A DNA stretch of 64,000 bases from Gilliamella sp. wkB171. Its GTDB lineage: Bacteria; Pseudomonadota; Gammaproteobacteria; Enterobacterales; Orbaceae. The position numbers and the translations under genes are program-made. The DNA is taken from positions 124,001 to 188,000 of the forward strand of contig NZ_LYST01000055.1 of NCBI RefSeq assembly GCF_001693755.1. The letters run 5' to 3'. The notes beneath the pieces were generated by a model, which saw nothing but the letters and a program-made list of their open reading frames with translations, made no database searches and was not told the origin of the DNA. Within the stretch, counting starts at the first letter, position 1, and the number at the start of each line of letters is the position of its first letter. This document shows, in pieces, positions 1,632 through 63,917 of this stretch.

Positions 1632-2114
1632 TTATTGTAAATTTATTTGAGATTTTTTCAGACCCTCAGTATCAATTTCTGCATTTTTTGTATGAGAGCA
1701 CAACCATTCTTCAATTCTATCTATAAGTTGTTCATCTGTTAATTTAAATTTCCCTTTTAATGCACATTCCCAGATTATCAATATTTTCCAGCCTAACTTA
1801 GCTAATTTTTGTATATTTTTTGTATCGCGTTTGCAATTATCATTAATTTTATTAAGCCAAAATTCAGTATTTGAGTTAGGTAACTTAAATAAATTACAGT
1901 TATGTTTATGCCAAAAACAGCCATGAACAAAGATAATCGCTTTATATTGCTCAATAACGAAATCGGGTTTTCCCGGTAATTCTTTGATTTGAAAGTTAAA
2001 AGGAATATCTAAGTTTTTTAATAGATTATTAATACGAATTTCAATAAAGGTATTTTCTTTCTTTATTGCTTGCATATTTTTACGCCTAATCTCTTTAGAA
2101 TGGACATCAACCAT
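1632..2114 (-). CDS. vsr: Very short patch repair endonuclease Vsr
   Basis: A 160-aa Vsr homologue. These enzymes nick 5' of the T in T:G mismatches that arise when 5-methylcytosine deaminates. Diagnostic motifs are PGKPDFV (catalytic Asp), FVHGCFWHKHNC (Zn/His cluster), FWLNKI-N--RD and GWKILIIWEC. It is the last gene of a leftward group behind the McrC-like and McrB-like genes and close to a cytosine-5 methyltransferase, whose mutagenic side effect it would repair. The start ATG at 2114 lies 16 nt from the upstream stop. The family is clear; that it serves this methylase is inferred from location. Confidence 0.93.
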   Translation of the reverse strand: MVDVHSKEIRRKNMQAIKKENTFIEIRINNLLKNLDIPFNFQIKELPGKPDFVIEQYKAIIFVHGCFWHKHNCNLFKLPNSNTEFWLNKINDNCKRDTKNIQKLAKLGWKILIIWECALKGKFKLTDEQLIDRIEEWLCSHTKNAEIDTEGLKKSQINLQ

Positions 2115-2130
2115 AAAGATTTATCTCTGT

Positions 2131-3405: not shown

Positions 3406-3432
3406 TGTAATTGTCAAAATATATTTTTATAA

Positions 3433-4983
3433 CTAAAATAATTTTTCTTGTAATTCAGGACAAAATATCTCTTTTTTTTCTTCAAAACACTTAATAAGTT
3501 GCCCAAATGTTCTTATGCTTGAATCAAAAATGATTGTTTTGGCTTGATGTCTCAATAAATCATCCCATAGGTAAATAAAAAGCTTATTGGTTAAGCCTTT
3601 TTCATTTATTTCATTGGTTGATAAAAAAAATGGCCCAAGATGACGATCTTCCGGAATATTAAATTCTGACAGACGCTCATTAATTTCTGTTGCTAATTTT
3701 CTCCAGGCAACACCAACTGTCTGATTATTGTTCGGAATATTGATAATTTTATCTGATGCTTTATCCATATTAATTTGAATATATTCAAATTCCCAACGTC
3801 TTTTAAATGCAGTATCTAAAGGCATAACAGCTTGGTCACTACTGTTCATGGTAGCCAGAATAGATAAATTACCCGGCATTTGTAATTTAACTTTGTTATC
3901 AGGATAACCACCAATTTTATTTATCAAATAATCTACTAAGCTTTGATCCGCCGGTTCAATTTCGTAACAACCAATTCCTTTTTCATCTCGGTCAAGAAGT
4001 TGAAATATTTCACCAAATACCATTGCTGCTTGAGCTCGGTTAATTTCTTCAATAACCAAATAATGGTGTATTTGAGGATTTTTTAAAGCATTAACATAGG
4101 ATTGAATAAAAGGACCTGGCATAAAATGATAGCTACATTCATTATTATCGTTCATCGCTGGTTTAAGCATGCCTAAAAAATCGCTATATTGAGTGTCAGC
4201 ATGAAAAACAGTATGTATACAATCTCCACCTTTAGTCAGTTGATCTATTTGGTAACTTTTTCCAGTTCCAGGAGCTCCATAAAAAATGATATTACGTCCA
4301 ATATCAATTTCATTTTTATCAATTAAATTCTTTAGTGCCTCTTTGAGCTCAGAATTTAGGCATATTTTTATAATTTCGTATAATTTATCTGAGCTGGCTA
4401 GTATAACATTCATAGCCAAATTTAAGGCGGATTGGATAACATCACTTCTGTTTAATTTTCGTCCTGAAGATGATGTTGTTGATTTTATCCACCAATCAGG
4501 ATCAGAAATGAAATAGCTTAAATATTTTCTATCATTGTCATTTAAGCTATTAAGCTCTTTTTTGATATCATCAACCCAATCTTTTGCTTCAGGTAGATTT
4601 TCCCAATCTCTACAAGGTAATTTTCCTAAAAAATTTTTCTTAGAATCAGAGGAGAATTTTTTCTTTTTAGAAATATTATTTATGATAGTATCAAACTTAT
4701 TTTTATATTTTTCTAATTCTTCAAGAAGAGGGGCGAAAGCATATGCATAATAGAGACAGGTTGTAGAGAAATTAGCTCGAAGGTTCTCATTGTTAGTATA
4801 GATAATGGAGTAATCATTAATACATAAATGTGTACCTGTTTTATTAGTTTGTTTGAAATATTCTGTAGCATGCTTTTTGAGCAGGACTTTAAATAAGTGA
4901 TCTAATCTAATTTCTTTGTAGTTTGGGAGTGTACTCCATTTTTTTCGGCATTCCAGAATAACTTTATCAAGATCTTTTAACAT
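3433..4983 (-). CDS. McrB-like AAA+ nucleotide-dependent restriction motor
   Basis: This 516-aa protein has an AAA+ core in its C-terminal half. Walker A GAPGTGKS is at 236-243, Walker B LVIEEINRA at about 309-317, a sensor loop MNSSDQ at 379-384 (McrB itself has MNTADR), and an FKRRW arginine-finger region at 393-397. The N-terminal 220 residues match no domain I recognise and probably read the target DNA. It would drive translocation for the nuclease encoded next. The ATG at 4983 is divergent from the methylase across a 117-bp spacer, so both directions are probably controlled there. Confidence 0.85.
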   Translation of the reverse strand: MLKDLDKVILECRKKWSTLPNYKEIRLDHLFKVLLKKHATEYFKQTNKTGTHLCINDYSIIYTNNENLRANFSTTCLYYAYAFAPLLEELEKYKNKFDTIINNISKKKKFSSDSKKNFLGKLPCRDWENLPEAKDWVDDIKKELNSLNDNDRKYLSYFISDPDWWIKSTTSSSGRKLNRSDVIQSALNLAMNVILASSDKLYEIIKICLNSELKEALKNLIDKNEIDIGRNIIFYGAPGTGKSYQIDQLTKGGDCIHTVFHADTQYSDFLGMLKPAMNDNNECSYHFMPGPFIQSYVNALKNPQIHHYLVIEEINRAQAAMVFGEIFQLLDRDEKGIGCYEIEPADQSLVDYLINKIGGYPDNKVKLQMPGNLSILATMNSSDQAVMPLDTAFKRRWEFEYIQINMDKASDKIINIPNNNQTVGVAWRKLATEINERLSEFNIPEDRHLGPFFLSTNEINEKGLTNKLFIYLWDDLLRHQAKTIIFDSSIRTFGQLIKCFEEKKEIFCPELQEKLF

Positions 4984-5014
4984 ATTTCATCAATCCCATT
5001 TTTACAGCAAAATA

Positions 5015-5043
5015 TTGACTGTTTAAATATCCAGTGCTATTAT
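5015..5043 (+). promoter_or_regulatory. Sigma70-type promoter of the methyltransferase gene
   Basis: TTGACT at 5015-5020, a 17-bp spacer, then TATTAT at 5038-5043, about 57 bp before the ATG. Both boxes are close to consensus. The -10 box runs into the palindrome at 5040-5062. Confidence 0.65.
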
Positions 5044-5062
5044 CCGGGAATAAAACGGATAA
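5040..5062. promoter_or_regulatory. Palindromic operator overlapping the methylase promoter
   Basis: A perfect inverted repeat, TTATCCG (5040-5046) and CGGATAA (5056-5062), with a 9-bp spacer. It covers the end of the -10 box and the likely start site of the methylase promoter. Because the methylase has its own N-terminal HTH, autorepression as known for M.EcoRII and M.SsoII is the simplest reading. The site also lies in the only spacer between the divergent methylase and nuclease genes, so it could set the balance of both. Confidence 0.55.
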
Positions 5063-5100
5063 CTCACTTTTTAATTAATATTTTACTAGGATACCTACAT

Positions 5101-6468
5101 ATGAATGAAATTTCATCATTTATTGAACAAAAGCGAATGAAAATAGGACTAACCCGAAAAGATTTTGCCAGATTATTAGGTATGAATGAAAATGGAGAGA
5201 GAACCGTACGAGGTTGGGAAAAAGGTGAGCACACGCCGTCTAAAGCAACTTTAGAATTGATTAGCCAATTACATGATGATTGCCCTTTTAAACAAAAAGG
5301 GTCGACTGTTCAAAAATTTACGTTTATTGACTTGTTTGCTGGGATAGGTGGTATACGGTTGCCATTTCAGGAACTAGGTGGAAAATGTTTGTTTACTTCA
5401 GAATGGGATAAGTTTGCTCAAAAAACTTACACTGCTAATTTTGGTGAGGTACCGAGTGGAGACATAACTAAAATAGCTGCAAAAGACATTCCTGATCATG
5501 ATATTTTATTAGCAGGTTTTCCTTGTCAGGCTTTTTCTCAAGCGGGATTAAGAAAAGGATTCAATGATACCAGAGGCACAATGTTTTTTGAGATTCAAAA
5601 GATTCTGGTTGAAAAAAGGCCGAAAGCATTTTTACTTGAGAATGTTAAACAACTAAAAGGCCATAATAAAGGTAATACATTAAAAACAATATTAAATATT
5701 TTAGAAGGTCATAATATTGGCCATATCCCCGATGATATTCCGTTATCTGGCGAAGCGAAAGAAGCTTTATCGAGTAAATTAAATTATCAGGTTTTTTATA
5801 AAGTATTGCGAGCCGCTGATTTTGGAGTACCACAAAATAGAGAAAGAATTTTTATTATTGGTTTTGACAGAGATTATTATGATCATATTGATTTCAATAT
5901 TTTATTTAAATGGCCGCAACCTCCGTGTATACCAACAAAGCTAGGAGACATCCTTCAAACTGAAAATGAAATTGATGATAAATATACTATTTCTGAAAAA
6001 CTATGGAATGGTCATCAACGAAGAAAAAAAGAACATACCCAAAAAGGTAATGGCTTTGGTTATAGTTTATTTAATTCAAACAGTGAATATACTAATACTC
6101 TAAGTGCTCGTTATTATAAAGATGGTAGTGAAATTTTAATTGACCAATCAGACTTAGGAAAAAGGCCTCGTAAATTAACACCGAGAGAATGTGCCAGATT
6201 ACAAGGTTTTCCTGATAATTATATTATTAACGCTGTATCTGACGGACAAATGTACAAACAATTTGGAAATTCTGTTACAGTGCCGGTTGTGAAAGCTGTA
6301 GCAAAGCAACTATTAGCGGCATTTACTTTAGCTAATCAGATGAAAGATTCTGAAAGTTTTACATCTGATCATTTAAAAGGTTTAGTTGATCGAGAGATCA
6401 GGGATAAAAACTGGACCGAGGCTGAATTAGTTTTTAATAAAATGAAATTGCAATATTCTAATAAATAA
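5101..6468 (+). CDS. DNA (cytosine-5) methyltransferase with N-terminal HTH
   Basis: A 455-aa C5 methylase that would protect host DNA from the adjacent nuclease. Residues 1-60 form an XRE-like helix-turn-helix (RKDFARLLGMNENGERTV, then GWEKG). Catalytic motifs are in order: I FIDLFAGIGG (75-84), IV GFPCQAFS with nucleophile C142, VI LLENVK (178-183), VIII REGRIF-like PQNRERIFIIGF, and X QFGNSVTVPVV near the C-terminus. The target recognition region lies between VIII and X. The ATG follows a TTTACTAGGATA ribosome site. The N-terminal HTH fusion is like M.EcoRII/M.SsoII, which repress their own genes. The recognition sequence cannot be read from the protein. Confidence 0.93.
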   Translation: MNEISSFIEQKRMKIGLTRKDFARLLGMNENGERTVRGWEKGEHTPSKATLELISQLHDDCPFKQKGSTVQKFTFIDLFAGIGGIRLPFQELGGKCLFTSEWDKFAQKTYTANFGEVPSGDITKIAAKDIPDHDILLAGFPCQAFSQAGLRKGFNDTRGTMFFEIQKILVEKRPKAFLLENVKQLKGHNKGNTLKTILNILEGHNIGHIPDDIPLSGEAKEALSSKLNYQVFYKVLRAADFGVPQNRERIFIIGFDRDYYDHIDFNILFKWPQPPCIPTKLGDILQTENEIDDKYTISEKLWNGHQRRKKEHTQKGNGFGYSLFNSNSEYTNTLSARYYKDGSEILIDQSDLGKRPRKLTPRECARLQGFPDNYIINAVSDGQMYKQFGNSVTVPVVKAVAKQLLAAFTLANQMKDSESFTSDHLKGLVDREIRDKNWTEAELVFNKMKLQYSNK

Positions 6469-8481: not shown

Positions 8482-9303
8482 ATGGACAAAAAAGCAAAAA
8501 AGATTCTGTTTCAAACCTATTGGAAAAATGGCTGGAAGGACAGAAAGGAGATAAAAACAGAGCCTAGCGACTTTGCGTATGCGAAAGAAAAAGGATTAAT
8601 GTTTGATCCCATTACCATATCACACGATGATTGTGTCAATAAAATCATAAACATCGTCGCCACAATCACACTTGAACACGTTGCCAAGGCCTTTTTGAGC
8701 AGCTTATCAACGCGGCGACTTGATTGGCGCTCAGGTATTGCATCATACTTTATCGCCAAATTAATGACAGCGCATCAATATACGCCAGTCGTGTCTGGTC
8801 AATCTTATCAAGATGGCCAAATGAGTCATTCATCCCATACGTGTCAGGTCTGCCGTGATCTCAAATATGGCATGATAGGTAATGAAAACTACACCAAAGC
8901 AGATTTAAATATCTTAAACTTTGAACGAATAAAGTGGGGAGGAGTGCGTCATGGTGATTTACTTTATACCTACTTTGATCTCATGCAATTCACCAAACAG
9001 GCAATCTCTGAACCGACCAAAGATGATATAGCTATTTTAAAAGGGATATTAGCCATTATTGCATCCTGTCAGCAAGATGATTATCCGGGTTCACTGAGTG
9101 ATAAACTGACGGATGTACCTAACTTTAAATCCAATCAGGATGAACGTAACACCGTTATTGAGATTTTGGCTTGTGTGGGGATTTTACAACCCGCTTCTTA
9201 TGAGCGCCCAACAAGGGGAAAACACGATTGGGTATATGCCACTTATTGGCGTGGTCAGGATAAATACAATCAACACATGGTAAAGCAATTATTTGGTTTT
9301 TAA
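8482..9303 (+). CDS. Uncharacterised 273-aa protein
   Basis: I do not recognise a family. The protein is soluble-looking, with no signal peptide or membrane segment. It has a Cys pair in HTCQVCRDL (about residues 120-128), an acidic and aromatic central part, and a C-terminus rich in Trp/Tyr (DWVYATYWRG). A stop at 8429-8431 ends the open frame upstream, and the ATG is preceded by a modest ribosome site. It lies in a zone of gene remnants between an RNA ligase and an rtcB relic. Soluble proteins of this size in such places are often orphan immunity proteins, but nothing here proves that. Confidence 0.6.
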   Translation: MDKKAKKILFQTYWKNGWKDRKEIKTEPSDFAYAKEKGLMFDPITISHDDCVNKIINIVATITLEHVAKAFLSSLSTRRLDWRSGIASYFIAKLMTAHQYTPVVSGQSYQDGQMSHSSHTCQVCRDLKYGMIGNENYTKADLNILNFERIKWGGVRHGDLLYTYFDLMQFTKQAISEPTKDDIAILKGILAIIASCQQDDYPGSLSDKLTDVPNFKSNQDERNTVIEILACVGILQPASYERPTRGKHDWVYATYWRGQDKYNQHMVKQLFGF

Positions 9304-10020: not shown

Positions 10021-11367
10021 TTATTTGTTTGCTTGCCATAAAAAATAAAAATCATTTTTATAAGCTTCAGTTTTATCATTAAAAGAATTTTTATAATTAA
10101 CTAAAATATCACTAATGGCCTTTCCTCCACCAAATAGAGCGAGGATATTCCCTATTTCAGGAGGTAATATACCTGAATATAACCCAATGGAAACAGAACC
10201 AGCTCCAATGTAGATAGAGTCTCTCACATTGCTTCTTAAATTAGATTTCCAGTTATTAACCTTTTTATTTATTATGTTTAATTCTGGTAGTATTTGATCT
10301 CTAAAAAGCTCAGATAATTCTTTATCATTCCATGATTGGCTTTTATTTTGCAAAATAGAATTTAATTTATCTCTATATACCTGAAAGGCTTCATTTTCTC
10401 GCTCTCTAAGATTTAATATATCTTGAGCATCTTTATAAAAAATAACTGGTAAATAATGGTTTAAGGCTTTTTCAAAGGAAGTTGCATTTGCAATTGATAC
10501 TTCGCTATTCAAGTTTTTAATAATATCTAAATTCCTTTTATTATCAGAAAGATAGGAAGTATTGTAAAAGTTAGAATGCCACTCTTGTATAGATACATCA
10601 TCAATAATTCTATTAATAATATATTGAAATAAATCATATTTTTTAATTTCATTAATGGAAATTACGTAAGGAGTTTTTTTATTTTTTAATTTTTGAATGA
10701 AGTTTGGATATGGTGGGTAAAAGTATAAATAGTATCGGGAATGTGGAATTAGTTCTTCTTTTTTTTCTTTAAATTCTAAAAAGTTTCCTTTACTATTTGA
10801 ATCAAACGTTATAGAGCAATGACTTAACAAATATTCTTCAAGAAGATTTGTTAATTTTTTTTCTTGGCTTTTTATTTTCTCTTCTAATGGAATCCCTAGT
10901 GAATCCCAGTGGTTTTTGCATAAAGTAATCCCTTCATTAACATACTTAATAATTCCTTTTTTGATAAAGGGTTCTAAATAATAAAAAAGAATAATACCAT
11001 TAATAAATTCTAATCTTGAATTATCAGAAAATTTATCAAATCCATGTAAATAAATTTTTTCAAATGGATGTCGTATATATATACAGTCAGCGTACAAGGA
11101 TGCAAAAGATACTAACTCATCTAATTTTGACATACGGCAGCCTAATGAAGAACAAAAATTGCCTCCGCCACTTAAAGATGAATTAGCTGTGAATGTGAAA
11201 TTTTTATTATTATGTTGTTCGGGTTTATGGTGATATATTATGCTTTTAGTAATGAGCTCACTTATTTCATAGAAAGTCTCATCAAATTTATTGTTATCAA
11301 TGTTTGTCAGATTTAAATCAGGAATATTTAATGAAATTATATGATTAATTTCTTCAACAAAATCCAT
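10021..11367 (-). CDS. Uncharacterised 448-aa protein with hydrophobic C-terminal segment
   Basis: I do not recognise a family. The N-terminal region has a distinctive SLSGGGNFCSSLGCR stretch followed by LVSFASLYADCIYIRHPFE. The middle is charged, with a Lys/Glu-rich coiled-coil-like part. Near residues 385-420 there is a Gly-rich hydrophobic stretch (IYIGAGSVSIGLYSGILPP, then ILALFGGGKAI) that could insert in a membrane. It is very AT-rich and lies 76 nt downstream of a RadC-like gene on the same strand. A good ribosome site (AGAGG) precedes the ATG. The context (island, RadC-like neighbour) suggests an accessory, perhaps anti-phage function, but this is a guess. Confidence 0.7.
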   Translation of the reverse strand: MDFVEEINHIISLNIPDLNLTNIDNNKFDETFYEISELITKSIIYHHKPEQHNNKNFTFTANSSLSGGGNFCSSLGCRMSKLDELVSFASLYADCIYIRHPFEKIYLHGFDKFSDNSRLEFINGIILFYYLEPFIKKGIIKYVNEGITLCKNHWDSLGIPLEEKIKSQEKKLTNLLEEYLLSHCSITFDSNSKGNFLEFKEKKEELIPHSRYYLYFYPPYPNFIQKLKNKKTPYVISINEIKKYDLFQYIINRIIDDVSIQEWHSNFYNTSYLSDNKRNLDIIKNLNSEVSIANATSFEKALNHYLPVIFYKDAQDILNLRERENEAFQVYRDKLNSILQNKSQSWNDKELSELFRDQILPELNIINKKVNNWKSNLRSNVRDSIYIGAGSVSIGLYSGILPPEIGNILALFGGGKAISDILVNYKNSFNDKTEAYKNDFYFLWQANK

Positions 11368-12419: not shown

Positions 12420-12866
12420 TTATTGCTTCAATACAATCTTACTCTTTAGTTTTTGCAACCCAATAATCGAATAATGACAGCATAATAAAATTGCCGGATA
12501 GATTATAAAATTGAGGGTGAAAAGTGATGTCACGCACAAAACACCCATGATAAACTCAATACTAAACAATAGTTTATCATAACCACCACTCATGATTAAT
12601 ATATAGAGAACCGCTAATATAAAGCTAATCAGTACTCCAATAAGTACGCCATAAATTACTAATCCTATAGGTCGTTTTATTTTATTTAGAAGATAAATTG
12701 AAATAATAAAAAAACAGAAATAACACAAACCATAAAATATTAAATAATATAATTCTGGTGGAAAACGATGATGTTTTTTTATAATTAAGGAATAACACCA
12801 TTGGTAACTTATAAATGCTCCAATAACATTAAATGTAAATATAATCATCATGTTAATTGTTTTCAC
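12420..12866 (-). CDS. Four-helix membrane protein, probable immunity to the PAAR effector
   Basis: A small inner-membrane protein (about 148 aa, four hydrophobic helices) directly behind the PAAR effector gene. I choose the GTG at 12866 because AAAAGGAC sits 6-7 nt upstream and because the paralogue at 13848-14288 aligns from exactly this residue. The frame can also start at ATG 12890. With the GTG, the gene overlaps the effector stop by 14 nt, implying translational coupling. Both ends (SYQWCY, YGLCYFCF, LNKIKRP, YPAILLCCHYSII) are shared with the paralogue while the middle loop differs, as expected if that loop sets specificity. Immunity function is inferred from context. Confidence 0.7.
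   Translation of the reverse strand: MKTINMMIIFTFNVIGAFISYQWCYSLIIKKHHRFPPELYYLIFYGLCYFCFFIISIYLLNKIKRPIGLVIYGVLIGVLISFILAVLYILIMSGGYDKLLFSIEFIMGVLCVTSLFTLNFIIYPAILLCCHYSIIGLQKLKSKIVLKQ
12461..12518. repeat. 58-bp direct repeat, copy 1 (immunity 3' ends)
   Basis: Identical over 58 bp to 13892-13949, 1431 bp apart in the same orientation, inside the 3' parts of the two paralogous membrane genes. Recombination between the copies would delete the effector. Confidence 0.85.
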
Positions 12867-13683
12867 TAGTTTGTCCTTTTTTATCTTCAATCTCTTTTAC
12901 TGCTTCTTCCAAAGAGCCAGGTGACCAATAGAGTTCTTGTAGACCATATTCATCTAAAACAGATGAAACGGCACGCGCACAATAAAAACCAATGTAAGTC
13001 GCATAATTACCATTAATAATTCTTTTTTCAATATTCAGCGCTTGATCTCGTGTTAAAGTAATTTCGCGTTGAGAAACGTAATCGCCATCTTCGGCATGGA
13101 ATTTTACAAACTCTGCTATTGAAAAAGGAATACTACCATCATCATAAAAAAGTTCCGCTTGCCCTCGATATCGTCGCATATAATCCCCATTTGGGTCGAA
13201 CATAAAAGGTGTCTTACCTTTAATATGAATGTATAGTGAAGAATGTGTTCCTAGGGACATTAAATTAATCCGCCTTGTAGTAAATAAATATGCTTCTACA
13301 TCTTGCTGACTATTTTTTTTCACTTCATCACTTAAATTATTATATAGGTCATTTTTTAAAGAGGTATGTGTCATATTGATAAAATTGCTGTTTTCTTTTT
13401 CCTCATCAACAAAAATAGTACTTTTAGTTGCTATAATTTTATTACAACCTACCGGAGAACATTGACATGCAACAATACAACCATCATATGCAGCTGGTTT
13501 ACCAGCAACAATATAATTATAAGTACCCTCTATAATTTTCCCAGTACTTTTACATTTAGGACAAGAGACATAATCGCCTATGCAAGCTATACCTTGATTG
13601 TTGCAAAAACCTTCATTCGATGCTGAAATGACCCTGCCACCAGTAGTGGTATAATCACCAAGAATAGCTACCTGTTTACTCAT
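12853..13683 (-). CDS. PAAR-domain type VI effector with papain-like C-terminal domain
   Basis: A 276-aa protein. Residues 1-90 form a PAAR domain (GDYTTTGGRV, GDYVSCPKC, GKPAAYDG), the spike tip of type VI secretion. The C-terminal 170 residues carry HSSLYIH (H147), FDPNGDY (163-168) and FYCARAVSSVL (C235). The order His then Cys fits a permuted papain/NlpC-P60-like amidase or lipid-acting fold, but I cannot name the toxin family. No secretion apparatus genes are nearby, so it is an orphan cargo gene. The immunity candidate follows with a 14-nt overlap. PAAR call is firm, the catalytic reading is inference. Confidence 0.8.
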   Translation of the reverse strand: MSKQVAILGDYTTTGGRVISASNEGFCNNQGIACIGDYVSCPKCKSTGKIIEGTYNYIVAGKPAAYDGCIVACQCSPVGCNKIIATKSTIFVDEEKENSNFINMTHTSLKNDLYNNLSDEVKKNSQQDVEAYLFTTRRINLMSLGTHSSLYIHIKGKTPFMFDPNGDYMRRYRGQAELFYDDGSIPFSIAEFVKFHAEDGDYVSQREITLTRDQALNIEKRIINGNYATYIGFYCARAVSSVLDEYGLQELYWSPGSLEEAVKEIEDKKGQTSENN

Positions 13684-43201: not shown

Positions 43202-43261
43202 AAAAACTCCCAAATATAGTGTTAGTTAGTCACGCAATAATTAACTAAACGAATATTGTCT

Positions 43262-43288
43262 ATATCGGATTAATTGCTAAAAACTTTA
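43262..43288 (-). promoter_or_regulatory. Sigma28 promoter of flgKL
   Basis: On the minus strand TAAAGTTT (perfect -35, 43288-43281), 11 bp, then TCCGATAT (43269-43262). It lies 61 bp upstream of flgK. Confidence 0.82.
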
Positions 43289-43344
43289 ATTATTTTTTGC
43301 AAAATTAAACACCGCTGATTTTTGGTAAAACTTTTTATGTTGCA

Positions 43345-44241
43345 TCACTCGGATTGAATTTTTTGTGATTGTTTTAAAAAATCAATACCAGTCATATTAT
43401 TTTCATCTTCAATATATTGTTGTGCTGATTTATTTAAGATTAAAATACTAATACGACGATTGGCATCATTACTGTAATTTGGTTTATTTAAGCTTACGGT
43501 ATCAGCCAATCCAATAATACGAATAATTTTGTTTGAATCTAAGCCACCGGCAATCAGTTCTCTTCTTGATGAATTTGCTCTGTCAGCGGATAACTCCCAG
43601 TTACTGTAACCTCGATCACCTGTAATATACTGGCGTTCATCGGTGTGGCCTGATAACGTAATTTTGTTAGGTAGTGAATTAATGATTGGTGCTAATGCAT
43701 TTAAAATTTCTTGCATGTTAGGGTGAATGACAGCACTGCCGACATCAAACATGGGCTTATCATCGCTGGCCAAAATTTGGATTCGTAATCCCATTTCAGT
43801 CAATTCTATAATTAAATTTGCCGCTAATTTTTTAAGTCGTGGATCGAGTTCAAATACTTCATTAATTTTGCGTGCGGTTTCTATTAACTGTAATTTTTCG
43901 ACCTGTTTTTTCTCAGAATCAGTAAGGTCTTGTTGCAAGGTGGTATTGTTTTCTTCCCCTATTTTTTTATGAAAATCATCACCACCGCCAGGTATTGGAC
44001 TTTCACTATCACTGAGGTTTTTTCCGCCATTTTGTCCCAGTATTAAAGGGGTTCTAAAATATTCAGCAATGCCTTGTAATTCTTGAGGGCTAGCTTTAGC
44101 AATTAACCACATGACCAAAAATAGCGCCATCATAGCGGTCATAAAGTCGGCATAGGCGATTTTCCAAGAACCACCATGATGCCCACCACTATGCCCCGAT
44201 TTTTTTTTAGAGATAATTATTTTTACTGAGTTGTTTTTCAT
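43345..44241 (-). CDS. motB: Stator protein MotB
   Basis: 298 aa (E. coli 308). The proton-carrying Asp is present in WKIAYADFMTAMMALFLVMW (D32). The C-terminal OmpA-like peptidoglycan-binding domain has LSGHTDERQYI and NWELSADRANSSRREL. It anchors the stator and conducts protons. The start overlaps the motA stop by 4 nt. The short His/Gly run before the helix is typical. Confidence 0.97.
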   Translation of the reverse strand: MKNNSVKIIISKKKSGHSGGHHGGSWKIAYADFMTAMMALFLVMWLIAKASPQELQGIAEYFRTPLILGQNGGKNLSDSESPIPGGGDDFHKKIGEENNTTLQQDLTDSEKKQVEKLQLIETARKINEVFELDPRLKKLAANLIIELTEMGLRIQILASDDKPMFDVGSAVIHPNMQEILNALAPIINSLPNKITLSGHTDERQYITGDRGYSNWELSADRANSSRRELIAGGLDSNKIIRIIGLADTVSLNKPNYSNDANRRISILILNKSAQQYIEDENNMTGIDFLKQSQKIQSE

Positions 44242-45128
44242 TGTTCACTGTTTTCTGTTTGCTGAGTATTTTTTTCTTTGATTTCTTGTAGGTATTTTTC
44301 TAATTCAAAGAAAGAAGGTCTTTCATGAGAAAATATGGTTTTACGTCCAAATTCAATACAAATTTGGGGGGCATAGTCATGCATACTTGCAATTAATATC
44401 ACTTTGATACATTCCAAGATTTTTACACTGTCGGCGTTCTTTTGTCTTAAAAGTGCAGCTAAAGGCGAAACAAAACCATAGGCGAGCAATATACCTAAAA
44501 ACGTTCCTACCATCGCGTGAGCAATTAATTCTCCTAACTCGCTCGCCGGCCTGTCAGCTTGTGCTAACGTATTAATAACCCCCATAACGGCTGCAACGAT
44601 ACCAAATGCGGGTAAGCCATCGCCTACACTTGAAATGGCATCGACAGGTTTTTCTAATTCATGTAACTTGGTTTCAATTTCTTCATTCATTAATGCTTCA
44701 ATTTCGTACACTTCCATGTTGCCACTAATCATTAATCGTAAATAGTCCGTTATAAAATCACAGATTTGAGGATTAGCTAAAATAAGTGGATAAGCTTTAA
44801 ATAGTTCACTTTCTTTGGGGTTATCAATATCAGCCTCGATAGATAATCCCCCATTTTGGCGAACTTTAGTTAAAATGGTGTACATTAAATTAATCAGGGT
44901 TAAGTACAATGTTTTGTTATATTTTGATGTCTTAAATAATTGACCTAACGATTTAAGGGTAGCGAGAATGATTTTTTTTTCATTACTGACAATAAACGCG
45001 CCGATAGCCGTTCCGCCGATAATTAGAAATTCTAACGGTTGAAAAAGTACGGCTAAATACCCTCCACTAAGTACATACCCAACTAGGGCAGAAGCGATAA
45101 CAACGATATATCCTACAATGATGAGCAT
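44238..45128 (-). CDS. motA: Stator protein MotA
   Basis: 296 aa (E. coli 295). Four membrane helices with a large cytosolic loop. The FliG-contacting charges R90 and E98 are at their E. coli positions (TKVRQNGGLSIEAD). The proline-bearing VGDGLPAFGIVAAVMGVINT is conserved. It lies 63 bp after flhC, so the flhDC-motAB order of E. coli is kept but the cheAW genes that follow there are missing. Confidence 0.97.
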   Translation of the reverse strand: MLIIVGYIVVIASALVGYVLSGGYLAVLFQPLEFLIIGGTAIGAFIVSNEKKIILATLKSLGQLFKTSKYNKTLYLTLINLMYTILTKVRQNGGLSIEADIDNPKESELFKAYPLILANPQICDFITDYLRLMISGNMEVYEIEALMNEEIETKLHELEKPVDAISSVGDGLPAFGIVAAVMGVINTLAQADRPASELGELIAHAMVGTFLGILLAYGFVSPLAALLRQKNADSVKILECIKVILIASMHDYAPQICIEFGRKTIFSHERPSFFELEKYLQEIKEKNTQQTENSEQ

Positions 45129-45191: not shown

Positions 45192-45797
45192 TTAAGCAGT
45201 CATTTGTTTTGCAATAATCGAATTAAAACCATTAGGTATTGATAATACTTGTAAGCATTTTGCATGGTTTTCTTTCTGTGTTTTGTTATTTTTTTCTGCC
45301 CTTGATGGTGGCTGGCATAAACTACAAATAAAACTATTATGCGGTTGATAAGCATGGGTAATAAATCGCCCTTTACACGCTTTGCAGCATGATTGTTGCA
45401 TTACATTGCTTTCAACAAATTTGACCAAGATCCAAGCTCTGGTAAGTCCTAAAACCGGCTCTTCATTATAAGACGAGGGACATTGCTCTAAGTACAGTTG
45501 GTAGGCTTTTAGAATCGATTGAATGCCAGGTTTAGTACCATGTTTAACCAAAAAGTGATAAGCATTATAAAAAATACTAGAGTGAATATTGGGTTCCCAT
45601 GTCATAAACCAGGTGGTTGAAAAGGGTAATAATCCTTTAGGCGGTGGACAACCTTGGATCTCTTTATATAATTTGATTAATTTACCACGACTTAAATTGG
45701 TTTCGCTTTCCAGCATCTGAATCCTAGCGCCTAGCGAAATTAGTCGGATAGCTAGTTGAACTTCCTTATATTTTTGAATAATACTTGTGCATCTCAT
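45192..45797 (-). CDS. flhC: Flagellar master regulator FlhC
   Basis: 201 aa (E. coli 192). The four zinc Cys are present (C138, C141, C158, C161, in CCKACKG and ICSLCQ). [20 protein letters not shown] is the conserved N-terminal region. With FlhD it forms the D4C2 activator of class 2 operons. It is co-transcribed with flhD, 12 nt apart. The C-terminal tail is a little longer than usual. Confidence 0.96.
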
Positions 45798-45809
45798 CCT
45801 AATTTCCTA

Positions 45810-46151
45810 TTACTTATTGATTGAATCTAATAGTAAACTAGATAAAAGAATTCCCGTGTGCATCTGTTTAATGTCACTCACGCGAGATTCTTCCGTTAGT
45901 TTTTTCATCATTTCTGAATTTTCAAAACGTAATTTAAATGTTAATTGGTTGGTTTCAGACAACACTAACATTTGAGAAGCACTTAGATTACTAAGCATGT
46001 CAGCTGTTTCTTCATCAATGCCTAGTCGATACATCGCCATTACTTTATCTTTTTCAAGCATGCGTTGACTTAGTAGTAATGTTGAAAGATTCAAATGATG
46101 TATGCATTTAAGAATATCGTCATCTAATATATTACCCAATTTAATCACCAA
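45810..46151 (-). CDS. flhD: Flagellar master regulator FlhD
   Basis: 113 aa (E. coli 116). LNLSTLLLSQRMLEKDKVMA, MYRLGIDEE and VLSETNQLTFKLRF with C-terminal QMHTGILLSSLLL match FlhD throughout. The E. coli Cys-65 disulfide position is a Ser/Val region here, so dimerisation may differ. Upstream is a 157-bp AT-rich region before fliA in which I see no CRP-like site, unlike the E. coli flhDC promoter. Confidence 0.96.
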   Translation of the reverse strand: MVIKLGNILDDDILKCIHHLNLSTLLLSQRMLEKDKVMAMYRLGIDEETADMLSNLSASQMLVLSETNQLTFKLRFENSEMMKKLTEESRVSDIKQMHTGILLSSLLLDSINK

Positions 46152-47197: not shown

Positions 47198-48010
47198 TTA
47201 TTGTAATAAAGATAGTACTGATTGTGGTACTTGGTTAGCTTGTGCTAATACAGATGTACCTGCTTGTTGTAAAATTTGACCACGCGTCATATTTGATACT
47301 TCGGTTGCATAATCAGCATCTTCAATTCGGCTACGTGCAGAACTTAAGTTATTTACTGTGTTATTGATGTTGTTAACAGTTGATTCAAAACGGTTTTGTA
47401 CCGCACCTAGCTCACCACGTAATGCATCAATTTTTGATAATGCTGCATCAAGCGTTTTTAATGGATCTGCTGTTGGTGTGTCTGATACATTGAAAGCAGC
47501 TAGACCTAATTCTGTGCTATCAATTTTTTTCAAATTGATTTCAATGGTTTCGCCGTCATTTGCGCCAACTTGGATTTTTAGTGATTTATCTGCTGACAAT
47601 ACTTTAGAACCATTGAAATCAGTTTGTTTAGATACACGGTCGATCTCTTCTAAACGTTGATCGATTTCGTTTTGGATTGACTCTAAATCGCTTTGTGAGT
47701 TAGTGCCGTTTGCTGCTTGAACTGTTAATTCACGAATACGTTGTACGTTGTTATTAATTTCGTTTAATGCACCTTCAGTTGTTTGCGCAAGTGAGATACC
47801 ATCATTTGCATTACGCGCTGCTTGAGTTAAACCTTTAATGTTTGAAGAAAAACGGTTAGCGATAGCTTGACCTGCTGCGTCATCTTTAGCGCTATTAATA
47901 CGCATACCAGATGAAAGACGTTCAATAGCTGTGCCAAGCACACTTTGTGAATTGTTAAGGTTATTTTTTGCCATTAAAGACATCGTATTAGTATTAATTA
48001 CTTGTGCCAT
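47198..48010 (-). CDS. fliC: Flagellin FliC, short form
   Basis: 270 aa from the ATG at 48010 (MAQVINTNTMSLMAKNNLNN), which has AGGAG ahead; an upstream TTG-type extension to 48043 is not needed. N-terminal D0/D1 (IERLSSGMRINSAKDDAAGQ, RIRELTVQAANGTNSQSDLE) and C-terminal D1/D0 are intact. The D2/D3 surface domains of E. coli FliC (498 aa) are missing, leaving only about 30 linking residues. A sigma28 promoter and a terminator frame the gene. Confidence 0.97.
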   Translation of the reverse strand: MAQVINTNTMSLMAKNNLNNSQSVLGTAIERLSSGMRINSAKDDAAGQAIANRFSSNIKGLTQAARNANDGISLAQTTEGALNEINNNVQRIRELTVQAANGTNSQSDLESIQNEIDQRLEEIDRVSKQTDFNGSKVLSADKSLKIQVGANDGETIEINLKKIDSTELGLAAFNVSDTPTADPLKTLDAALSKIDALRGELGAVQNRFESTVNNINNTVNNLSSARSRIEDADYATEVSNMTRGQILQQAGTSVLAQANQVPQSVLSLLQ

Positions 48011-51228: not shown

Positions 51229-52938
51229 ATGGATAGCCAAACTGTCGGTAACAAAGGCGAATCAATATTGAGTAAGTTACCATTTATCAATCAATTTAAA
51301 CAAAATCGTAAAATGCTGCTGCTTGTTGCTGGCGTGGTTGTGCTTGCCATTAGTAGTATCGCCTATTTATGGTTAAAAGATGATAATTATGGGGTTTTGT
51401 TTAGCCAGTTGAGCGATAAAGATGGCGGCGAAATTATTAGCCAACTTGATAAGATGAATATTCCTTATCAGTTTTCATCTTCAGGATCGACTATCTTAAT
51501 TCCTGCTGATAAAGTTTATGACACGCGCTTACGTATTGCCCAGCAAGGCCTACCTAAAGGTGGTGCTGTTGGTTTTGAATTACTCGACAAAGACAGCTTT
51601 GGTATGAGTCAATTTAATGAACAGATTAATTATCAACGCGCATTAGAAGGCGAACTATCAAGAACCATTTCAATTATTAGTAGTGTGGATGATGCGAGAG
51701 TGCATTTAGCGATGCCTAAGCCATCTTTATTTGTACGTGAACGAAAATTTCCTTCAGCGTCTGTAGCATTAACATTGTTGCCAGGACGATCATTATCGCA
51801 AGGGCAAATAGATGCTATTGTTCATTTAATTTCAAGCAGTGTACCGGAATTACAAGCAGAAAAAGTCACAATTATTGACCAACAAGGTCATTTATTAACG
51901 GGTGAAAAATTTCGCGACGGTAACGTCAACGTAGCGCAGTTAGAATACAGTCAAAAAGTAGAAGATACTATTCGAGAGCGGGTCGAAAAAATCATTACAC
52001 CAGTGTTAGGTAAACAAAATATTATGGTGCAAGTTAATGCTGATATTGATTATAGCCGGCAAGAAGCAACATCTGAAACCTTTGATCCCAATGGCGATAC
52101 TGCTCAGCAAACCTTACGTAGTAAGCATCAAGTGGAGAATCGTCAGTTAGCAGCAAACGATAACACAGGTGGTGTGCCGGGCGCTTTGTCAAACCAACCT
52201 ATGCCAACACCGAGTGCCCCAATAGATGATAATCCAGACTCAAAATCAAAAGACGATAAGAAAAAAATTTATAATTTACAATCAAATAACACGTTAAATT
52301 TTGAAGTAAATAGACAAATCGTGCACAGTAAAATCCCAGAAGGGCGTATTAAACGATTGTCAGTTGCAGTGCTGGTTAATTATAAGTTTATGGCACAACA
52401 GTTGGATCAATCTCAATTACAAGAGCAATCTGACAATGCCAAGGAACCAGCACCACAATGGGTGAAATTAGATAAAGACGAATTGGAAAATATTGAAGCA
52501 TTAGCGCGTCAAGCAATGGGATTTTCTGATTCACGCGGTGATACGTTGACAGTTGCAAATTTAAAATTTACCGATCAAGCGCTCGAAACGGATGATAGCT
52601 TGCCATTTTGGCGAACACATGAGTTTTATGATGTGCTAAAAACAGTAATTAAATATCTTGTTTATGTTTTAGTGTTATGGTTTGTTTGGCGCAAAATGTT
52701 ACGTGCTTTATGGATTAAATTACAACGCCAGCTCTTTAATGTGAACCATGCTTCAACGGATACTAAATTATCGGGTGAGGATAAGTTAGATTATAAGGCG
52801 CATAGTAAACAGCAGCAGAAGATATTTGAAGATAATATGCAGCAGCAACAATATATTCGCAAAATTGTCGAGAAAGATCCTCGGGTCATGGCGTTAATTA
52901 TACGTGGTTGGATAAGTAAGGCGGACACAAATCCATGA
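51229..52938 (+). CDS. fliF: MS-ring protein FliF
   Basis: 569 aa (E. coli 552). Two membrane helices (about 29-49 and 470-490) flank the periplasmic ring-building motifs (GVLFSQLSDKDGGEIISQLD, VGFELLDKDSFGMSQFNEQI). The C-terminal cytosolic tail binds FliG. The Asp/Lys-rich linker near 340 explains the extra length. Its stop overlaps the fliG start by 4 nt. Confidence 0.97.
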   Translation: MDSQTVGNKGESILSKLPFINQFKQNRKMLLLVAGVVVLAISSIAYLWLKDDNYGVLFSQLSDKDGGEIISQLDKMNIPYQFSSSGSTILIPADKVYDTRLRIAQQGLPKGGAVGFELLDKDSFGMSQFNEQINYQRALEGELSRTISIISSVDDARVHLAMPKPSLFVRERKFPSASVALTLLPGRSLSQGQIDAIVHLISSSVPELQAEKVTIIDQQGHLLTGEKFRDGNVNVAQLEYSQKVEDTIRERVEKIITPVLGKQNIMVQVNADIDYSRQEATSETFDPNGDTAQQTLRSKHQVENRQLAANDNTGGVPGALSNQPMPTPSAPIDDNPDSKSKDDKKKIYNLQSNNTLNFEVNRQIVHSKIPEGRIKRLSVAVLVNYKFMAQQLDQSQLQEQSDNAKEPAPQWVKLDKDELENIEALARQAMGFSDSRGDTLTVANLKFTDQALETDDSLPFWRTHEFYDVLKTVIKYLVYVLVLWFVWRKMLRALWIKLQRQLFNVNHASTDTKLSGEDKLDYKAHSKQQQKIFEDNMQQQQYIRKIVEKDPRVMALIIRGWISKADTNP

Positions 52939-53939
52939 ATTTAAGTTTAAGTGAATCTCAAAAAGCAGCAACCGTGCTAATGGTATTAGGTGAAGAGCTT
53001 GCCGCTAACGTTATGCAATACCTTAATCCCAAAGAGGTACAGCAAATTAGTAGTGCAATGATGTCGCTACCACAACTTTCTCAAGAACAGTTGAAAGACA
53101 TCTTAAATGAATGTCAAAAAACACTTGAAGAGTGTGCAGTACTTAATACCGATACCAATGGTTATTTACGTTCAATTCTCGAAAAATCAATCGGTACTGA
53201 AAAAGCCGATCGGTTACTTGATGAGTTGTTAGAGGTCGATTTAGATGAAGCGAAAGATGGACTTGAGATGCTTAATTTTGTCGATGCAGCTAGAGCGGTT
53301 GATTTAGTTAAAAAAGAACATCCACAAATTATTGCTACAATTTTAGTTCATTTAAATCGAGATTTAGCTGCGGAAATTTTAAATCTATTTGATGATGAAT
53401 TACGTAATGATGTCATGCTTAGAATCGCAACATTTGGCGGGGTTGAGCCGTCGGCACTTCAGGTTTTATCTGCCTCATTATCGACGTTACTACATGGTCA
53501 AAATATTAAACTTAATAACCTTGGTGGTATTCGTACTGCGGCTGAAATTATTAACTTGATGAAATCACAACAAGAAGAATTGGTGATCAATTCCTTACGT
53601 GATTATGACAGTGAACTTGCACAGAAAATTATTGATGAAATGTTCTTGTTCGAAAATCTGGTTGAAGTTGATGATAGAAGCATCCAACGTCTACTTAAAG
53701 AGGTGGATAATGAAACATTGATTATTGCCTTAAAAGGGGCATCTGTGGCATTACGTGACAAGCTATTAAGTAATATGTCACAGCGTGCCGCTTCGATTTT
53801 ACGTGAAGATTTAGAAAATAGACCACCAGTGCGCTTATCTCAAGTCGAAACAGAACAGAAGAAAATTTTGGTTATTGCGCGCAAATTAGCTGAAAGTGGT
53901 GAAATGATTTTAAGTAGCGGTGATGACGAATATGTATAA
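52935..53939 (+). CDS. fliG: Motor switch protein FliG
   Basis: 334 aa (E. coli 331). The EHPQ motif is at 128-131, and the torque helix region FLFENLVEVDDRSIQRLLKE VD is almost identical to E. coli. The GGVEPSAL loop is kept. FliG contacts MotA and transmits rotation to FliF, so motor function looks intact. fliH overlaps its end. Confidence 0.98.
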   Translation: MNLSLSESQKAATVLMVLGEELAANVMQYLNPKEVQQISSAMMSLPQLSQEQLKDILNECQKTLEECAVLNTDTNGYLRSILEKSIGTEKADRLLDELLEVDLDEAKDGLEMLNFVDAARAVDLVKKEHPQIIATILVHLNRDLAAEILNLFDDELRNDVMLRIATFGGVEPSALQVLSASLSTLLHGQNIKLNNLGGIRTAAEIINLMKSQQEELVINSLRDYDSELAQKIIDEMFLFENLVEVDDRSIQRLLKEVDNETLIIALKGASVALRDKLLSNMSQRAASILREDLENRPPVRLSQVETEQKKILVIARKLAESGEMILSSGDDEYV

Positions 53940-57896: not shown

Positions 57897-58364
57897 ATGC
57901 AAACTACCAAGAAAAAAGTAAGTATTTTAAACATAATACTTATTATCATTACGTTATTAGCATCAGGCACTGCAGTTTATTTGTGGTTACAAAATCATTC
58001 AAGTAACAAGCCTCAAGTTGAGCAAGAAACACCAATTGTATCTCCGGTATTTTTAACTTTAAAACCTTTCACTCTTTCGTTACCGGTTGCCGAAGATAAC
58101 AGTGATGCGACTAAAATTTTGTATGTTGGTATGGTGTTACGCGTTGCTGATGAGCAACAAAAAACAGTTTTATTAGAGTATTTACCAGAAGTGAGAAGTG
58201 ATGTTTTACTTTTGGCATCAAAGCAGTATGTTAATAATCTTAAAAAAGAGAACGGTAAAACTGATTTACAAGAGAAGATTAAGTCAACGTTAACTCGTCA
58301 ATATGACGCAAAACATTCTGTAAAAATTGATGAAGTGCTATTTACTGATTTTATACTTCGGTAA
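57897..58364 (+). CDS. fliL: Stator-associated protein FliL
   Basis: 155 aa (E. coli 154). One membrane helix near the N-terminus (IILIIITLLASGTAVYLWLQ) and a periplasmic C-domain ending EVLFTDFILR, the conserved FliL end. It supports the stators under load. First gene of fliLMNOPQR. Confidence 0.94.
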   Translation: MQTTKKKVSILNIILIIITLLASGTAVYLWLQNHSSNKPQVEQETPIVSPVFLTLKPFTLSLPVAEDNSDATKILYVGMVLRVADEQQKTVLLEYLPEVRSDVLLLASKQYVNNLKKENGKTDLQEKIKSTLTRQYDAKHSVKIDEVLFTDFILR

Positions 58365-58369
58365 GTATT

Positions 58370-59407
58370 ATGTCTGATAAGCAAGAATCAACAGTTGACA
58401 TTAATCCCTCTACAGATGCTGAGTTTACTCATAACCCAGCAGAGGCTCAATCTGATATTTTGATTGATTCTCAGCAATCGATTGGTAAAAAGATTGAAGT
58501 CAAACCCTATGATTTATCGGTAAAACACAGCTTTATTCCAGAGCGATTAACCGCTTTAGAAATTATTAATGAGCGTTTTTCGCGCCAGTTTCGCATTGGC
58601 TTATTTAATTTACTTCGTCGTAATACCGATGTTATTGCTTGCCCGATTGAGCCGAAAACATTTAAAGAGTTTTCGGCAATTTCGGCAACAAATCATCTAA
58701 ATTTAGTCCATCTTAATCCACTAAGGGGGACGAGTTTATTTTCGTTTTCACCTGAACTGGTGTTTATTGTTGTCGATACTTTATTTGGCGGTGATGGTCA
58801 CTTATCTAAAGTTGAAACAGAAGGGCGAGAGTTTACTCATACTGAACAACAAATTATAAAACGAGTATTAGAGCTAGCTTTAACTATCTATCAAAATGCA
58901 TGGACAGATATATATTCAATTGAAACTGAATATATTCGTTCTGAAATCCAAAGTAAATTTACCAATATTACCAGCTCGCCGGATGATGTTGTATTAACCA
59001 CTACATTCAAAGTCGAAATTGGTAATTGTAAAGCTACATTTTGTATCTGTATTCCCTATGCAATGGTTGAACCCATCAAAGAATTACTAATAAAACCGCC
59101 AGTAGAACAACAAACGTATCAGGATGATAACGTTTGGATGAGTTCGTTAACCAGTGGTATTAAACAATCGACCGTTGAATTAGTGGCTAACTTTACTCAT
59201 ATCCATACCACAGTCAATAAACTTTTAGCCTTAAAAGTGAATGATATTTTAGTGATTGAAAAGCCTACACATCTTGATGTCACTGTTGGTGGGGTGCCAG
59301 TGCTAAAAGGTCACTATGGTAAAGTGAATAAACAATATGCAATTCAAGTCGAACAGGTAATTAATCCTGTTTTAGAACAACTGAATGAAGGAGCACTTAA
59401 TGACTGA
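58370..59407 (+). CDS. fliM: Motor switch protein FliM lacking the CheY-binding N-peptide
   Basis: 345 aa (E. coli 334). From residue 47 on it follows E. coli FliM (LTALEIINERFSRQFRIGLF, GGDG at 140-143, EFTHTEQQIIKRVLELAL, and the C-terminal FliN-like domain). Residues 1-46 are an unrelated acidic Ser/Asp-rich stretch. The LSQxEIDxLL peptide, which in FliM binds CheY-P, is absent, and no alternative start restores it, because the ATG lies 5 nt after the fliL stop. FliM should still build the C ring, but CheY-P control looks lost. Confidence 0.95.
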   Translation: MSDKQESTVDINPSTDAEFTHNPAEAQSDILIDSQQSIGKKIEVKPYDLSVKHSFIPERLTALEIINERFSRQFRIGLFNLLRRNTDVIACPIEPKTFKEFSAISATNHLNLVHLNPLRGTSLFSFSPELVFIVVDTLFGGDGHLSKVETEGREFTHTEQQIIKRVLELALTIYQNAWTDIYSIETEYIRSEIQSKFTNITSSPDDVVLTTTFKVEIGNCKATFCICIPYAMVEPIKELLIKPPVEQQTYQDDNVWMSSLTSGIKQSTVELVANFTHIHTTVNKLLALKVNDILVIEKPTHLDVTVGGVPVLKGHYGKVNKQYAIQVEQVINPVLEQLNEGALND

Positions 59408-59777
59408 TAGCAAATCAACGAATGATGATGATCAAACGTCCGCTGTGGCTGATGAATCAGTGAATAAACAAACTATTTTTGAAACACTATCACCACAACA
59501 AACCGAAATCAAAAAGCAAGATATCAATTTGATTTTAGATATTCCTGTGAATTTAAGTGTTGAATTGGGTCGAACCAAAATGGCAATTAAAGATCTCTTA
59601 AATTTAACGCAAGGCTCAGTTATTGCATTAGATGGTTTAGCCGGTGAACCTTTAGATATATTAATTAATGGTTATTTAATTGCACAAGGTGAAATTGTGG
59701 TGGTGGGTGATAATTATGGTGTGCGAATTACTGATATTATTACACCTTCTGAACGTGTACGTAGATTGAGTCGTTAA
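59400..59777 (+). CDS. fliN: Motor switch protein FliN
   Basis: 125 aa (E. coli 137). I use the ATG at 59400 (MTDSKSTNDD), with AAGGAG ahead, overlapping the fliM stop by 8 nt. LILDIPVNLSVELGRTKMAI, IALDGLAGEPLDILINGYLI and VGDNYGVRITDII are the SpoA-domain signatures. It completes the C ring and docks FliH. Confidence 0.97.
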   Translation: MTDSKSTNDDDQTSAVADESVNKQTIFETLSPQQTEIKKQDINLILDIPVNLSVELGRTKMAIKDLLNLTQGSVIALDGLAGEPLDILINGYLIAQGEIVVVGDNYGVRITDIITPSERVRRLSR

Positions 59778-62606: not shown

Positions 62607-63917
62607 TTGCTCGCTACTTTTTTATTGCCAATTAATTCTGCTAATGCGCTATCTGCGGTAACATCTCAAAAAATTATTGGTAATTCACCTAGATTTGTTG
62701 ATGTTCAAAATGCTACCAATAAGCTTGGGTTCAAAGTGAATGGTATCTTGTATCGTGAATTTGACAATAATATCAAATCAACAGAAATAAAAGTGTTTGA
62801 TGGAGAATTTACCTTTGATAATTTTCAAGTTCAAAATTATGACACCAGCAATCTGGTAGTGTTAAACAATTATAAAGATAGTGATGGTGATGGTGCCCAT
62901 TTAAATACCCCTTTTGTTATTACTGAAACTGAATATAAGTGGTTTGATAATAGCGGTAAGCAAATAGATTCAAGTGAATATCAGCATAGTATTGGCTGTG
63001 GTAGTGGTTATTATATGCCTCTAAAACTGGTTATTGCTACACAAGTTAAGGTTAAATCACAATATGGGATACCCGATGAGAGTGAATATATAACATTAAA
63101 AAAAGAGTATAAAATTGCCACTAAACCTGCCATATGTTTTGCAAAACCTAACGCAACCATTACTGTTGAAAATGCCCAGTGGCATAGTTTTGATGACAAT
63201 GGTAATTCACAACCTTGGAATCTCAATAATGCGCAAATTAGTTCGATATATGGTGGTGGGCGCACCACTGATTATGTACTGAATTTTGGTTTTAAAGCAT
63301 CACCGACACAATCAAATGGAAAAAAATTTCCAACCACTGGTTTTCCTGGGGCTAAATTTCAGTTAGTAATGGCGGGTTCGCAATATGATTATCGTTTTTC
63401 TTTAATAACACCAACAAGCGATGTGGTTACGGTTAGTGCAGATGGGTTTGTTACTTTAAACAAGAAACCTGTGGGTAATGTAACTATACGTGCCACGCTG
63501 AAAAGAGAGCCAGCGATCACGTTTGATTATACTTTTAATCCAACATCGGTTTGGGCGGTGCCTACAGGGGATTATTCTGCTATTTGGGCCGTTGCTGTTC
63601 AAGATAAGTGTGGTAGTGAATCAAATGTATTAAGTCGGCAAGAACTGACTAATTCACCACAAAATCAAGCTCCTCAATTTTGGACTTATTTCGATAATAA
63701 CTATACTCGCAAGATAGGCGGTGGACTTAGTGCTGAGTGGGGACAAATGAATCAAACAAGTTATCCAGATTCTAATTGGCGCAATGAGCATTATTGGACC
63801 AGAGATTACTATTCACCAGACAGGCACTTTGTTGTACATAGTGTTAATGGTGGAGTCGGTTATGATGGCTATGAAAACAAAATAGGGAAAATTAATTATA
63901 TTGCTTGTAAGCAATAG
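62607..63917 (+). CDS. Secreted adhesin-like protein with C-type-lectin-like end
   Basis: At least 436 aa. The TTG at 62607 gives a short signal peptide lacking basic residues. The same frame upstream (to 62451) encodes RIKVIDILVILILLATFLLP with SANA as cleavage site, a better signal, but has no ATG or GTG. The start is therefore uncertain or lost by a frameshift. An Ig-like block (FKASPTQSNG, VSADGFVTL NKKPVGNVTIRA) precedes a C-terminal domain with two Cys (DKCGSES, YIACKQ) and YTRKIGGGLSAEWG, like the tips of invasin-type adhesins. Host or surface binding is inference. Confidence 0.65.
   Translation: MLATFLLPINSANALSAVTSQKIIGNSPRFVDVQNATNKLGFKVNGILYREFDNNIKSTEIKVFDGEFTFDNFQVQNYDTSNLVVLNNYKDSDGDGAHLNTPFVITETEYKWFDNSGKQIDSSEYQHSIGCGSGYYMPLKLVIATQVKVKSQYGIPDESEYITLKKEYKIATKPAICFAKPNATITVENAQWHSFDDNGNSQPWNLNNAQISSIYGGGRTTDYVLNFGFKASPTQSNGKKFPTTGFPGAKFQLVMAGSQYDYRFSLITPTSDVVTVSADGFVTLNKKPVGNVTIRATLKREPAITFDYTFNPTSVWAVPTGDYSAIWAVAVQDKCGSESNVLSRQELTNSPQNQAPQFWTYFDNNYTRKIGGGLSAEWGQMNQTSYPDSNWRNEHYWTRDYYSPDRHFVVHSVNGGVGYDGYENKIGKINYIACKQ

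Follow-up and report, generated by a model that had tools for sequence, protein, structure and literature searches.

The 64,000-nucleotide stretch of Gilliamella sp. wkB171 DNA analysed here, henceforth referred to as the window, encodes a flagellar motor of the E. coli type whose switch protein FliM lacks the peptide that captures CheY-P. Gilliamella and Frischella, culturable symbionts of the bee gut, have lost the core chemotaxis genes that were searched for, a natural deletion by which the E. coli-type motor is deprived of its chemotaxis input. Very probably, chemotaxis was lost in an ancestor, the docking sites for CheY-P then decayed, and the motor still turns, unsteered and probably in its default direction.

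The CheY-P-binding peptide is missing from FliM

The fliM gene (58370–59407, forward strand) is present as a single copy and encodes a protein of 345 aa. The protein matches PF02154 at 183 bits and PF01052 at 59 bits, corresponding to its middle and C-terminal domains, and matches the FliM profile TIGR01397 at 265 bits (cut-off 219.6), the latter match beginning only at residue 33. The nearest solved structure is FliM of the Salmonella C ring (8umd_C), which has the same fold. The sequence LFGGDG, containing the GGxG motif of the middle domain that we take to be FliG-binding, is kept.

The initial annotation, made from the sequence alone, stated that this FliM has no CheY-P-binding peptide, which was borne out by a scan of the whole protein. 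The best 10-residue match to LSQAEIDALL scored 15, where a perfect match scores 44, and shuffled versions of the protein gave a median best match of 13 and a 95th percentile of 19; the best local match is no better than shuffled sequence would give. The fliL gene (57897–58364, forward strand, PF03748) ends 5 nt before fliM, and the open frame exceeds the fliM gene by only 7 codons upstream. An alternative start codon was therefore ruled out as a means of restoring the peptide, in agreement with the annotation's statement that no hidden start exists. A FliM profile search of the whole genome (2.67 Mb in 59 contigs, 99.99% complete) identified one FliM and no second fliM carrying the peptide, and nothing comparable to the peptide was found when FliM, FliN, FliG and FliL were scanned for a similar motif. 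Neither finding that the annotation had said would count against it, a second fliM or a CheY motif elsewhere in FliM or FliN, was thus made. Residues 189–198 of FliF score 32 of 44 against the peptide and were rejected as a relocated copy; E. coli FliF carries the near-identical stretch LDEGQISAIV, so this segment is ordinary FliF sequence.

FliM was present in 34 of 44 Orbaceae genomes, namely 32 Gilliamella genomes and two of the Frischella genus (g27; G060 and G061). The FliM-bearing Gilliamella genomes, out of 35 including the window's own, contributed 33 loci, two of which belong to one genome (G014) that is 74% complete and 5% contaminated. The three Gilliamella genomes without FliM were G004, G005 and G011, the second of which is 81% complete. 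Comparison of related FliM N-termini, as proposed in the initial annotation, showed that the peptide is missing from all 35 Orbaceae loci (33 from Gilliamella, two from genus g27), the whole protein having been read in each case. In the named set, the peptide was found in none of 25 Orbaceae loci compared to 55 of 55 outgroup loci, 52 of which read LSQAEIDALL and three LSQAEIDRLL. All 17 order-level comparators with FliM also carried it. According to PMC11434166, complete flagella were not detected in the Orbus and Utexia strains of that study.

Chemotaxis genes and c-di-GMP signalling are not detected

The annotation had further proposed a genome-wide search for chemotaxis genes, and the outcome agreed with its expectation of their loss. 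The CheW domain (PF01584), which also detects CheA, was found in none of the 44 Orbaceae genomes, comprising 35 Gilliamella, the window's own among them, and nine other Orbaceae including G035; of the 14 control genomes, 7 gave matches in the same search, E. coli being one of them. No chemoreceptor domain (PF00015) scored over the cut-off in any of the 36 Orbaceae genomes searched (35 Gilliamella and G035), with one match below the cut-off (E 6e-4) in a Gilliamella genome (G003). The window's own genome encodes 11 receivers and no stand-alone, CheY-like response regulator; the shortest open frame containing a receiver is 227 aa, compared to 129 aa for E. coli CheY.

Within the window, tblastn with E. 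coli CheY, CheZ, CheB, CheR, CheW, CheA and Tar returned no match at E 0.1. Gene order in E. coli K-12 is flhDC-motAB-cheAW-tar-tap-cheRBYZ-flhBA. The window has a gap of 131 bp (43214–43344) between motB and the next open frames, which read as flgK and flgL, flgK having been named by eye; the corresponding place in E. coli holds cheA-cheW-tar-tap-cheR-cheB-cheY-cheZ.

That the chemotaxis genes are present and were merely missed, either because they fall into assembly gaps or because they have diverged too far to be found, is exceedingly improbable. The fragmentation of the window's own assembly is consistent with such an artefact, as is the restriction of the profile searches to families other than CheB, CheR and CheZ. 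It is opposed by the absence of CheW from all 44 genomes, several of which are single contigs with 99–100% completeness, by the matches obtained in the controls, and by the loss of the FliM peptide in the same genera that lack CheW.

A second rapid input to the motor was considered in the form of c-di-GMP. PilZ and GGDEF domains were each found in 0 of 44 Orbaceae genomes, with E. coli among the positive controls. A YcgR-type brake on the Orbaceae motor is therefore unlikely, and c-di-GMP acting through PilZ is unsupported as a substitute for chemotactic control. Across the 44 genomes searched, the family as a whole seems to be without c-di-GMP signalling.

CheW and FliM in the wider order

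Among 394 genomes of the order, FliM was found in 304 and CheW in 300. By-eye comparison of the two lists showed that 25 of the 300 CheW genomes are without FliM, that 28 of the 304 FliM genomes are Orbaceae, and that, outside Orbaceae, CheW accompanies FliM in 275 of 276 genomes. The sole exception, G403 (2.7 Mb, locus L145), was confirmed to have FliM and to be without CheW. Its FliM retains a variant peptide, LSQHDIDELL, and its FliN retains DPWADVLEEEQ; the FliM loop discussed below reads DFSDKLPTPINLN, with D at the position of R94. This genome keeps its docks without CheW and so counts against the loss explanation, since loss of the chemotaxis genes and loss of the docks are evidently not locked together. 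It may represent a younger loss. A rule by which loss of chemotaxis always erases the peptide is unsupported for the same reason.

The peptide was examined in 22 of these 276 genomes (L042–L058 and L143–L147, the latter group chosen for weak FliM or CheW results), and the motif or a variant was found in 21 of the 22. The FliM open frame of L146 (G274, CheW-positive) is 303 aa long, begins past the peptide region and may be truncated at its start. In G045, a weak match to FliM (E 2e-15) was observed in addition to the first.

The FliM tail has diverged while the core is retained

In place of the peptide, the window's FliM has an N-terminal tail (residues 1–44; 58370–58501, forward strand) containing nine D/E, three K/R and six S residues. 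The tail is predicted to be disordered, with AlphaFold2 pLDDT values below 50 at residues 1–41 in a model whose mean pLDDT is 65 and which is reliable in the middle domain alone. The initial annotation gave the unrelated stretch as the first ~46 residues; its length is not fixed and ranges from 43 to 57 residues ahead of the conserved PYD across the 35 Orbaceae proteins.

Divergence of the tail was compared with that of the core in 13 sequences chosen from 26 Orbaceae FliM (the window and L061–L085). Over 78 pairs, median amino acid identity was 31% in the tail versus 82% in the core, and median dN was 0.74 versus 0.12. Median core dN/dS was 0.07 over the 61 pairs with dS between 0 and 2, a rough value because dS is near saturation and mostly above 1. 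These values indicate that the core is under strong purifying selection.

It is conceivable, though very unlikely, that the new tail binds another regulator and that the motor is controlled by an unknown protein other than CheY. A tail of this length range persists before PYD in 35 of 35 sequences, 30 of which start with MSDK or MPDK, and other proteins, including SpeE, fumarate reductase and YcgR, are described as acting on the switch in PMC11087270. The nearly free sequence of the tail and its predicted disorder argue otherwise, as do the absence of PilZ and of a stand-alone receiver in the window's own genome.

The R94 loop and the FliN W motif are also lost

The claim that everything after the tail is strongly conserved was only partly upheld, as the core is generally kept and one loop within it is heavily altered. 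In 53 distinct outgroup rows, 198 FliM columns are at least 95% conserved, and 54 of these are lost in 26 distinct Orbaceae rows. The losses are densest at E. coli residues 81–100, a 20-residue block altered more than any other in the core, where 10 of 14 conserved columns are gone. A Fisher test of this block gave p 0.0004–0.0005, which is post hoc because the block was spotted in the alignment before testing; a permutation over all 20-residue segments of the core is fairer, and in 74 of 5000 label shuffles the densest segment reached the observed value. The block contains a middle-domain loop (residues 102–109; 58673–58696, forward strand) that replaces the E. coli ARNLPVPTN loop with R94. 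The loop is shortened and rewritten in Orbaceae and varies between species. The R94 column is a gap in 26 of 26 distinct Orbaceae rows; a pairwise alignment places A at this position. R94 itself is not universal, being H in most non-enteric comparators, in which the loop retains its length and its VPT motif. In PMC11087270, R94 is cited as a suggested key CheY contact of the FliM middle domain.

A third site was observed in FliN (59400–59777, forward strand, 125 aa). The N-terminal tail of the protein (window region 59400–59519) is without the W motif that lies around W19 in outgroups (for example DLWADAFNEQ). The motif was absent from all 25 Orbaceae sequences and present in all 55 of the outgroups; the pattern was widened after the sequences had been viewed and the count repeated, so that the outgroup value is a description and not a blind test. 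No function for the W motif was found in the literature consulted. We hypothesize that the motif is tied to chemotaxis, and its loss would then belong to the same loss as that of the FliM peptide and loop. The C-terminal hydrophobic patch of FliN, a proposed CheY site, is largely kept (V112, V113 and V114 retained, V111 replaced by I and A115 by G), which may count against the loss explanation, although the patch also docks FliH.

The main alternative, although a rather unlikely one, is that the C ring has been re-tuned to reverse spontaneously, providing random reorientation without a sensor. The rewriting of the R94 loop, within the proposed CheY-contact domain, in all 26 distinct Orbaceae rows is consistent with re-tuning, and the FliN tail has changed too. 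The variation of the loop between species, however, resembles that of a decaying site, and E. coli motors without chemotaxis genes are by default locked in counterclockwise rotation.

The remainder of the flagellar set is kept

The whole flagellar set, flhA to fliR, is readable from the open frames of the window, 12 of which were checked against Pfam and the rest named by eye. The set includes the master regulator genes flhC and flhD (45192–46151, reverse strand; PF05280, PF05247) and the flagellin gene fliC (47198–48007, reverse strand; PF00669, PF00700). The flagellin is very short at 269 aa and consists of the terminal helical regions only.

Torque residues were inspected in MotA, MotB and FliG, with MotA R90/E98, MotB D32 and the charged FliG residues being assumed to have torque roles. 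MotA (44238–45128, reverse strand) keeps R90, E98, P173 and P222; MotB (43345–44241, reverse strand) keeps D32; and FliG (52935–53939, forward strand) keeps K264, R281, D289, R297 and EHPQ. The only torque residue to differ is FliG D288, which is E.

These residues bear on the possibility that the flagellum has ceased to serve swimming and is retained for a role in attachment, secretion or host signalling, which would make steering useless. Such a role appears quite unlikely. In its favor, the hosts' guts are the habitat, Gilliamella GA5 strains are less motile than GA1 strains even though their flagellar genes are intact (PMC11822680), and flagella are linked to biofilm formation in PMC10470603. 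It is difficult to reconcile with the kept torque residues and with the swimming of GA1 strains, which have long flagella according to PMC11822680; this evidence of swimming comes from Gilliamella strains other than that of the window. Buchnera, by contrast, is without fliC, motA and motB as described in PMC8109811, and Gilliamella keeps all three. The two are alike in being insect symbionts, and FliG, FliM and FliN are among the flagellar proteins of the Buchnera basal bodies in that paper.

Proposed course of the loss

The following course is proposed. The chemotaxis pathway would have been lost in an ancestor common to the flagellate Orbaceae (Gilliamella and Frischella), perhaps of the whole family. 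With no CheY-P left to bind, selection on the C-ring docks would have ceased; a disordered tail, free to drift, would have replaced the FliM N-terminal peptide, and the middle-domain loop with R94 would have been shortened and rewritten, while torque-making and assembly parts would have remained under strong purifying selection. The order of these events is part of the proposal. The outcome would be a rotating motor without CheY input and without detectable c-di-GMP/PilZ input, controlled mainly through whether flagella are made (flhDC, fliA, flgM).

The default direction in relatives of E. coli is counterclockwise, and E. coli motors without CheY rotate counterclockwise only. The Gilliamella motor would probably turn in its default direction as well, and the cells most likely swim without steering and for the most part smoothly, under regulation through the expression of flagellar genes. 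The interpretation given in the initial annotation is supported, although the fixed or differently controlled rotation that it names is an inference. Because the chemotaxis genes searched for, the FliM dock and any detectable c-di-GMP system are all lost, swimming of Gilliamella and Frischella is probably not steered by known routes.

A broader reading, possible but on balance doubtful, is that the motor has lost its main second-by-second inputs, CheY-P and c-di-GMP, and that re-tuning of the C ring has made its direction fixed or self-timed. Under this reading, the FliM peptide, R94 loop and FliN W motif, having been lost together, would mark, as in a natural experiment, the parts of the C ring that serve signal reception and not torque, the W motif being a chemotaxis input.

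Relation to known systems

The window's C ring resembles the CheY-controlled C ring of E. coli and Salmonella in its fliF-fliR gene order (by eye), in its fold, and in its identity to E. coli (FliM 48%, FliN 63%; 60%, 57% and 51% for FliG, MotA and MotB). It differs in being without the CheY peptide, the R94 loop, the FliN W motif and the chemotaxis genes after motB. The natural deletion of the chemotaxis input hints at which C-ring residues are conserved for signalling alone, and it makes the N-terminal W motif of FliN a candidate. Brucella, of a different lineage, presumably offers a similar case of flagellar genes without chemotaxis genes. The flagellum of Aquifex aeolicus gives mostly smooth swimming, like that of the motor proposed here, and this organism is reported to be without FliM altogether (PMC7355467), whereas Gilliamella keeps FliM and has lost its dock.

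The KEGG chemotaxis map also includes motA, motB, fliG, fliM and fliN. Since the map shares these motor genes, published chemotaxis enrichment in bee Gilliamella probably reflects them. In Table 1 of PMC12282196, 'Bacterial chemotaxis' is given as an enriched pathway in a fraction of 1.00 of Apis and Bombus Gilliamella, and Gilliamella motility is explained by nutrient chemotaxis in PMC11822680. The lack of a detectable CheW/CheA domain in the Gilliamella genomes searched bears on the reasoning in both. In literature searches on flagella and chemotaxis in Gilliamella, Orbaceae and Frischella, which covered few subscription journals and are hence no proof of novelty, no statement of chemotaxis loss in Gilliamella was found. 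If selection maintains unsteered swimming, what it does for the cells in the gut, such as spreading, escaping flow or surface contact, becomes a direct question.

Other features of the window

An open frame of 436 aa (62607–63917) directly past the flagellar cluster has no Pfam match, nor do two others of 273 aa (8482–9303) and 448 aa (10021–11367). The protein encoded at 12853–13683 has a PAAR motif and a C-terminal extension of unknown function and is possibly, as a guess, a type VI secretion tip. An island at 1632–6468 encodes a Vsr endonuclease, an LlaJI-type restriction enzyme, an AAA protein and a C5 methylase.
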